NCBI RefSeq assembly: GCF_900104065.1
Contig: NZ_FNLC01000005.1
Location: forward strand, 62,001-126,000
From: Natronobacterium texcoconense
Lineage (GTDB): Archaea > Halobacteriota > Halobacteria > Halobacteriales > Natrialbaceae
Reading direction: 5' to 3'
Length of the DNA: 64,000 nt
Under the pieces are notes generated by a model, which was given only the letters and a program-made list of their open reading frames with translations, was not told the origin of the DNA and made no database searches. How positions within the stretch are numbered: position 1 is the first letter of the stretch; every line of letters begins with the position of its first letter. Both the position numbers and the translations under genes were made by a program. Shown one piece after another: positions 30,691 to 32,354 of this stretch.

Positions 30691-30708
30691 TCTATAGTAG
30701 CTACTGCA
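30691..30708 (+). repeat. left inverted repeat of AT-rich insertion
   Basis: TCTATAGTAGCTACTGCA, which includes the 10-base palindrome AGTAGCTACT (30696-30705). It matches the reverse complement of 31560-31577 at 15 of 18 positions. Confidence 0.6.
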
Positions 30709-30798
30709 AGAGGATGTCACAGAACGCACCTCATGGCGTTTCTTCCGTTCCATTTAGACTGCACTATCCGTTCACTATACCTGCGTAATAACGACCAA

Positions 30799-31404
30799 TT
30801 ATCCCCAATCAAGTTCAGCAGGAATCTCACTAAACCCAGATCCAGAATGCCGATATGCAGTCCACCCAGCGTTTTTAGCTCCAAGAATATCCGCGTCTGA
30901 ATCTCCTATCATCGCATAAGTCTCCGCTGGAAGCCGTTTTTCGGCGATTCTGTACGGAGCCTCGTCTGGCTTGTGAGCCCCCGCCTCGTAGGAGGTGACA
31001 ATTGTATCGAAGTACTGATCGAGATTATATTTGCGGAGTTTCCCTCTTTGCCACTCTGGAAAGCCGTTTGTGAGAACACCGAGTGCATAGTTCTCTGTTA
31101 ACCGCTCAAGGTCGTCATGAACTCCGTTCTGAGGCCGACATGAAGCTGTCTCTCGCTTTCGGAGCTCTTCAGCGAGCGACTCTGGCTCTGAACAGGGTTC
31201 TATACTGGCAAACGCTTGTTTAGCTGGATCTGGTTCACAAGTCTTGAATAATTTAAAAAATTCCTCATTATACTGCGTTATCCAATTATCCTGCACCTCA
31301 CCTTCTATTGCGTTGAACGTCTCAGCTATGATATTTTGATACTCATGACGAAGCTCAAGCAGTGTTCCGTCCAGATCAAAAAATATCGCTCTTGTAGAAG
31401 TCAT
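30799..31404 (-). CDS. HAD-superfamily hydrolase (subfamily IA), AT-rich, 201 aa
   Basis: Phosphatase-like enzyme. Nucleophile Asp10 and Asp12 in FFDLDGTLLE, motif II Thr in GVLTNGFPEWQ, Lys in AHKPDEAPYRIAEKR, and motif III acid pair in MIGDSDADILGAKNAGW. The helical cap (residues 20-90) fits the IA group. Base composition is strikingly low in G+C: two sampled 60-base lines count 33 and 47 percent, against about two thirds in neighbours, and the protein is less acidic with more Lys, Asn and Ile. This points to recent acquisition. It may act on a small phosphate ester; the substrate is unknown. Confidence 0.85.
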   Translation of the reverse strand: MTSTRAIFFDLDGTLLELRHEYQNIIAETFNAIEGEVQDNWITQYNEEFFKLFKTCEPDPAKQAFASIEPCSEPESLAEELRKRETASCRPQNGVHDDLERLTENYALGVLTNGFPEWQRGKLRKYNLDQYFDTIVTSYEAGAHKPDEAPYRIAEKRLPAETYAMIGDSDADILGAKNAGWTAYRHSGSGFSEIPAELDWG

Positions 31405-31559
31405 ATTTCCAATATATGATTTCGTGGTTGGTATCTCTTCCCCTGTATCCCCCGTTCGGCGAGCAACCGGTGGGTGAGTATGCGAACTGTTCTATGGCTC
31501 CCTCACTGTAAGTCGATGCGCACCTGATCGCACGACAGCCGTGTGCCCAGTGAAAACAG

Positions 31560-31577
31560 TTCAGTTGTTACTATAGA
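31560..31577 (-). repeat. right inverted repeat of AT-rich insertion
   Basis: Reverse complement reads TCTATAGTAACAACTGAA, the partner of 30691-30708. Confidence 0.6.
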
Positions 31578-31673: not shown

Positions 31674-32354
31674 TTATGCCTCGACGCTGCCGCTGTAGAA
31701 CACCGTATCGGTGTTCTCGGCGGGGTTACCGATCATAACTGTCCACTCGTCGCTGTCTTCGGGGACCGTCAATTCGGCCGTGTCGGCTCCATTGCTGACG
31801 ACTTCACCGGGGCCTTCGCCTCGATCGAGGTCGACAATTCCGACGACGATGTCTTGGTCAGCTGGCGTCCACTGGATTGGGATTTCGACGCTTTCCCCTT
31901 CACTCCACGTGAACGAACCGTGAAGGTTTGCTTCGTCCGGTTCGGCTTCGTCCGAGAAGCTGAACGAGTCGGGACCGATCGCCTCGATCGGTTTCTCCGC
32001 AGTATCCCACTCGTCCAGGTCGATCGTCGTGGGTTCGGCCGGCTCGGAGGAGTCTTCGTCTGCCTCGACCAGATCGAGGTCGAACTCGCCGATCGAGACC
32101 GTCTGTGACTCGTTCGTGCTTGCATCGGACGAGTGCGCGTCGTCACTATCGACGTTCCACTCGTCCAGATCGATCGTCGTCGTCTCGCCCGACTCCGTCT
32201 CGCTCGAGTCTACGTCCGGTTCCACGATCTCGATTTCGATGTCATCGAAATCGGTTGTCTGTGATTCGTCTGCCTGTTCTGCTGCCATTACACCGCCCAC
32301 AGCGACTGCGAGCAGCGTCATAAGCGCCAATGTGAGCGTCGTTGCGTTTCTCAT
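31674..32354 (-). CDS. secreted acidic protein with internal repeat, 226 aa
   Basis: Sec-type signal peptide (MRNATTLTLALMTLLAVAVGGVMA, cleavage near residue 25). The mature N-terminal half is nearly all Asp/Glu/Ser/Thr and contains the repeated phrase TTIDLDEW (before NVDSDD and again before DTAEKP), spaced about 50 residues apart. The C-terminal 90 residues form a beta domain (LHGSFTWSEGESVEIPIQWTPADQDIVVGIVDLDRG and DEWTVMIGNP) resembling pre-peptidase or collagen-binding-like sandwich modules. No membrane anchor. An AACTAGTT site lies upstream, also present before the neighbouring regulator. Function unknown. Confidence 0.72.
   Translation of the reverse strand: MRNATTLTLALMTLLAVAVGGVMAAEQADESQTTDFDDIEIEIVEPDVDSSETESGETTTIDLDEWNVDSDDAHSSDASTNESQTVSIGEFDLDLVEADEDSSEPAEPTTIDLDEWDTAEKPIEAIGPDSFSFSDEAEPDEANLHGSFTWSEGESVEIPIQWTPADQDIVVGIVDLDRGEGPGEVVSNGADTAELTVPEDSDEWTVMIGNPAENTDTVFYSGSVEA

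Follow-up and report, generated by a model that had tools for sequence, protein, structure and literature searches.

What is the mobile unit that brought a hydrolase gene to the region upstream of hisS in Natronobacterium texcoconense, and where does that unit begin and end? The window, as we call the whole stretch of 64,000 nucleotides that was analysed, contains at this place a gene of the HAD family in a short insertion of low G+C content. A first-pass annotation of the same DNA had placed the boundaries at a pair of 18-base inverted repeats. We conclude, with high but not complete confidence, that the insertion is a nested one, in which a passenger cassette lies within a MITE of about 84 bp and belongs to a haloarchaeal family of cassettes with exchangeable cargo.

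An interrupted MITE upstream of hisS

The outer repeats, TCTATAGTAGCTACTGCA (30691–30708) and TCTATAGTAACAACTGAA (reverse complement of 31560–31577), are identical at 15 of 18 positions, as first described, and exceed chance, since their pattern with up to three mismatches has 55 and 57 matches in the genome against 13 and 12 for the reversed control. Most of these matches occur as inverted pairs with a spacing of 70 bp, and the pairs are the termini of an 84-bp MITE, TATAGTAGCCACTGCAAGTCAATGCACACCTGATCGCACGACAGCTGTGCGATCAGTGTGTAAATAGTTGCAGTTGTTACTATA, which BLAST located at about 40 places of the same genome in two subfamilies. It is short and non-coding, has inverted ends and occurs in many copies. 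The 84-bp element contains a strong internal hairpin (CTGATCGCAC...GTGCGATCAG), for example in the copy at G000:C5:166034-166117. The annotation had proposed a genome search for the repeats and for an insertion sequence with matching ends; the repeats were found in abundance, but an autonomous element sharing the ends of the MITE was not identified among the loci examined.

At the hisS locus the MITE is present in two parts, both on the plus strand. The left part (30693–30710) corresponds to MITE positions 1–18 and agrees with the consensus at 17 of 18 bases, and the right part (31505–31575) corresponds to positions 10/11–84 and aligns locally to the consensus far above shuffled sequences. Past MITE position 18 the similarity on the left side is no better than that of shuffles. 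A full but diverged MITE in the left 90 bp (with ACTATA near 30780) was considered and rejected for this reason, and also because the stretch falls in the left end module of the cassette described below.

Eight bases are shared by the two MITE parts, and the inverted ends AGGATGTCACAGAAC and AGGGAGCCATAGAAC lie directly inside the two copies of this overlap, ACTGCAAG (30703–30710, plus strand) and ACTGTAAG (31505–31512, plus strand). The copies differ by one base (7/8 identical). Such an overlap is expected if an inserting element duplicates 8 bp of its target and one of the two copies mutates later, and joining the flanks with a single 8-bp copy restores a full-length MITE of 81 bp. The segment between the copies is a passenger cassette of 794 bp (30711–31504). 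Its left terminal inverted repeat, AGGATGTCACAGAAC (30711–30725, plus strand), and its right one, AGGGAGCCATAGAAC (31489–31503, minus-strand reading), each differ from the ISH11-type consensus AGGGTGTCATAGAAC at 2 of 15 bases. The G+C content is 47% in the insertion and in the cassette itself, as compared to 61–65% in the 5-kb flanks, which bears out the low value noted earlier.

The composite insertion, a MITE of about 84 bp interrupted by the cassette (30693–31575, plus strand), is absent from the congener G004, where hisS and an acidic secreted-protein gene are found in the same order without the MITE and without the HAD gene. The empty site hoped for in a relative thus exists, and it closes at the outer ends: GACGAGATC-TA-GAGGCGAG in the window aligns with GACGAGGTC-TG-CGGTCGAC in G004. 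A TA duplication by the MITE is compatible with this comparison, but it is indistinguishable from the ends of the MITE itself. The secreted-type acidic protein encoded next to the insertion (31674–32354, minus strand) has 226 amino acids and no Pfam match, and it was seen in one of the four congeners (G004, 71%).

The matching outer repeats, and an empty site that closes at them, would also be explained if the MITE ends bounded the mobile unit, that is, an 883-bp HAD-carrying element with TATAGTAG ends of which the 84-bp MITEs are deletion derivatives. Such an element would not be expected to have nearly a whole MITE on its right side, rather than merely an end, or MITE parts with exactly 8 bp in common at the inner ends. 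Moreover, no second long element bounded by MITE ends was found among the loci examined. The elements described below, in which these inner ends and modules enclose other genes and have different flanking DNA, make this explanation very improbable.

Under the nested insertion, the order of events has its whole basis in the nesting, from which we infer that the MITE is the older element and the cassette the younger. No strain with the MITE and without the cassette was found.

The HAD gene and its origin

The only open reading frame that fills the cassette (30799–31404, minus strand) encodes a HAD-family hydrolase of 201 amino acids (Pfam HAD_2, E=1.3e-23; NCBIfam HAD-IA), in which the motifs DLDGT, LTNG, HKPD and GDSDADILGA are intact by eye. 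The protein is unrelated to transposition, and a tblastn search of the window with the ISH11-type transposase gave no match. As had been remarked, it is somewhat less acidic than its neighbor, with 17.9% Asp plus Glu as compared to 21.1% in HisS.

No orthologue of this protein is present in the four congeners, where the best match has 33% identity; vertical conservation of the gene together with hisS, which would have argued against a transferred element, was accordingly not seen. Orthologues were detected in 38 of 125 genomes of the family, the host genome included, and the remaining copies are 40–63% identical to the window protein. Those that were inspected have a G+C content of 62–71%, as opposed to 47% for the window gene. 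They look like ordinary chromosomal copies, because cassette ends are missing near all that were inspected. In a tree, the copies that cluster with the window protein come from other genera (7 rows, support 95/95). A scan of genome contigs with the HAD protein returned distant matches only. The lack of a congeneric orthologue, the gap in G+C content and the placement with other genera together support horizontal acquisition, in agreement with the initial view of a transferred gene. Two congeners (L085, G002:C16, and L086, G001:C1) have another HAD paralogue, about 33% identical, at a distance of roughly 3 kb from hisS, which is probably a coincidence.

Since relatives of the HAD gene are common in the family, one might suppose that it is an old resident near hisS that was lost in the congeners, with the repeats landing alongside by chance. 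We regard this as extremely improbable, because none of the congeners has an orthologue, the alignment gap in G004 is bounded by the repeat ends, and both the base composition and the tree set the gene apart as described above. A neighborhood of hisS and HAD without cassette ends was not seen in the compared loci of the genus, and both end modules of the cassette are recognized by profiles made without it, as follows.

Shared end modules and varied cargo in a cassette family

Alignments show that a left module of about 80 bp and a right module of about 65 bp are conserved across cassettes with unrelated cargo. Profiles of these modules that were built without both copies of the host genome recover the left end (30711–30791, minus strand; E=2.7e-12) and the right end (31437–31503, minus strand; E=5.6e-9) of the window cassette.

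A second cassette of the host genome (G000:C2:996153-997117) has both ends similar to those of the window element, an exact duplication, GTTAGCGC, and a different gene, which encodes a protein with a Bles03 domain. It is missing from three congeners and has no MITE around it, which contradicts a mobile unit bounded by MITE ends. The 95-bp right end of this cassette was matched in 70 of 125 genomes of the family, from 22 of 29 genera; ISH11 ends may account for some of the shorter hits. A left end module (E=7e-8) with no detected right end was also observed in the host genome at L204 1501–1584 (G000:C3, ~13834), which is probably a decayed third cassette.

At least 11 elements without transposase have an exact 8-bp duplication, the Bles03-like cassette of the host genome among them. 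One of these, an element of 1702 bp (L296, G006:C8; duplication GAACACAC), carries a complete-looking tRNA synthetase of class Ib (PF00579) that is probably TrpRS. The others carry a response regulator with BAT/HTH_10 and DUF7344 (G072), a cupin (G058), a protein with DUF7344 and HalOD1 (G119), a lipoprotein-like protein (G089), a cysteine-rich protein of 73 amino acids (G012), small membrane-type proteins (G012, G009, and G082), and, in an element of 502 bp, an annotated hypothetical protein of 85 amino acids (G111). Elements with both ends whose duplication has a single mismatch, is 7 bp long or is missing carry, among others, an FKBP-type isomerase with PadR, SnoaL-like, PAS and HTH_63 proteins, a second cupin, and an alpha/beta-hydrolase-like protein. 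Near-empty cassettes of 369–515 bp with both modules were found as well. Two cassettes, at L302 5446–7047 (G104) and L304 5153–6958 (G001), seemingly enclose a transposase of another insertion-sequence family, i.e., a further nesting. The right-end repeat of the cassette had no exact match in viral contigs.

The proposal of a cargo-carrying element without its own transposase was therefore right as to kind, given the inverted ends of its own, the 8-bp duplication, the empty site, the lack of a HAD orthologue in the congeners and the look-alike family, and wrong as to the ends, for the repeats that were named belong to the older MITE that served as the landing site. The other suggestion, the remains of an insertion sequence, fits less well, because cassettes share both end modules (~80 and ~65 bp), whose sequence past the terminal repeat is not that of ISH11.

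Mobilisation and comparison with known elements

The inner end sequence of the cassette type is frequent in relatives, where it often forms pairs spaced about 1067 bp, with a DDE_Tnp_1 protein of 330 aa encoded between them. This protein shares 94.5% identity with the 'IS5-like element ISH11 family transposase' of Halobacterium salinarum plasmids. Of 31 distinct end pairs, 10 have a perfect direct repeat of 8 bp or more (0.004 expected). Copies of ISH11 with duplications of 6, 8 and 9 bp have been listed (PMC10264941). The cassettes are like ISH11 in the terminal repeat AGGGTGTCATAGAAC and in duplications of about 8 bp (PMC10264941). They are unlike it in that ISH11 encodes a 330-aa transposase and the cassette encodes none, and the alignments show that the similarity ends after the terminal repeat, the modules beyond it not being ISH11 sequence. 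With no DDE transposase, the window element is not a full member of ISH11. At a threshold of E<=1e-60 the ISH11-type transposase is present in 46 of 125 family genomes, on a plasmid in the congener G001, and in none of the contigs of the host assembly. An ISH11-like element of 4.1 kb (L181 2837–6941, G003:C1) has kept the transposase gene, next to genes for an ABC exporter (ATPase and permease) and an HTH_10 regulator; its duplication is 8 bp, AACGAATA.

We propose that the MITE of about 84 bp inserted upstream of hisS, probably at a TA dinucleotide, and that the 794-bp cassette with its ISH11-type terminal repeats then entered the MITE with duplication of 8 bp. An ISH11-type transposase from elsewhere, i.e., from another replicon or a past resident, would most likely have recognized the ends and mobilized the cassette in trans. 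The near-empty cassettes of 369–515 bp could, as a speculation on how cargo is captured, serve as acceptors for genes. Because the host has no ISH11-type transposase at E<=1e-60, the window cassette is probably stranded at present, and its current mobility is doubtful.

Since the end modules resemble ISH11 in the terminal repeat only, the partner could also be a different transposase, whose own element has the full modules and with which ISH11 shares just the short terminal repeat. The conservation of the modules well past that repeat and the occurrence of the right end in 70 of the 125 genomes, as compared to 46 with an ISH11-type transposase, would fit this possibility. We consider it unlikely, if far from negligible, as both the terminal repeat and the length of the duplication fit ISH11-type elements and no autonomous element with full modules was present among 40 extended loci. 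Decayed pieces of ISH11-like transposase were observed near a right module in L287 and L291.

Whichever transposase acted, the window element would function like a mobile insertion cassette, as judged by its sequence: it has the paired inverted repeats of an insertion sequence, no transposase, a passenger gene and a target duplication as long as those of the parent, and all the sequence features of this class that we examined are present. In MIC231 from Bacillus cereus and the mic element of qnrD (PMC3913671) a passenger gene likewise replaces the transposase between insertion-sequence ends with a target duplication, and MIC231 is reported to be moved in trans by the transposase of its parent, IS231A (PMC3913671). 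Those elements are bacterial, and MIC231 is of the IS231 type (IS4 family), whereas the present ones are archaeal and of the ISH11 type (IS5-like), with many unrelated cargoes sharing two end modules. Its archaeal host, its ISH11-type ends and the modules common to the family set the element apart from known cassettes.

Among haloarchaeal elements without transposase, ISH2 and HqIRS32 (an ISH2-type MITE) are about 520 bp long, have an ORF that is probably expressed and are mobilized in trans by ISH8 (PMC3119063, PMC10264941). They differ in having one type of small ORF, ISH8-related ends and 10-bp duplications, and swapping of unrelated full-length genes is not described there. MITEHsal2 of Halobacterium salinarum (411–413 bp, with duplications of 8 or 6 bp; PMC10264941) has the size of the near-empty cassettes, which makes a possible relation to them a lead. 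Modular passenger elements have been described for IS231 of the IS4 family and, according to a 2008 review, were not seen in other insertion-sequence families (PMC2266710). We found no description of ISH11-type passenger cassettes in the literature searched, which was that outside subscription papers and ISfinder, and a claim of priority is not supported.

A wider reading, which we offer tentatively and hold somewhat short of an even chance, is that the cassettes form a dedicated gene-shuffling system of haloarchaea, in which the conserved end modules would be a portable frame that captures unrelated genes repeatedly and spreads in trans across genera. Its role would resemble that of bacterial integron cassettes, but with ends recognized by a transposase.

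Haloarchaea swap genes freely across genera, but descriptions of small vehicles for single genes in archaea are scarce. A family that keeps its ends while the cargo varies provides a testable route for such cross-genus transfer, and its signature, i.e., the terminal repeat, the two end modules and the 8-bp duplication, can reveal genes that have moved recently, many of them of unknown function.
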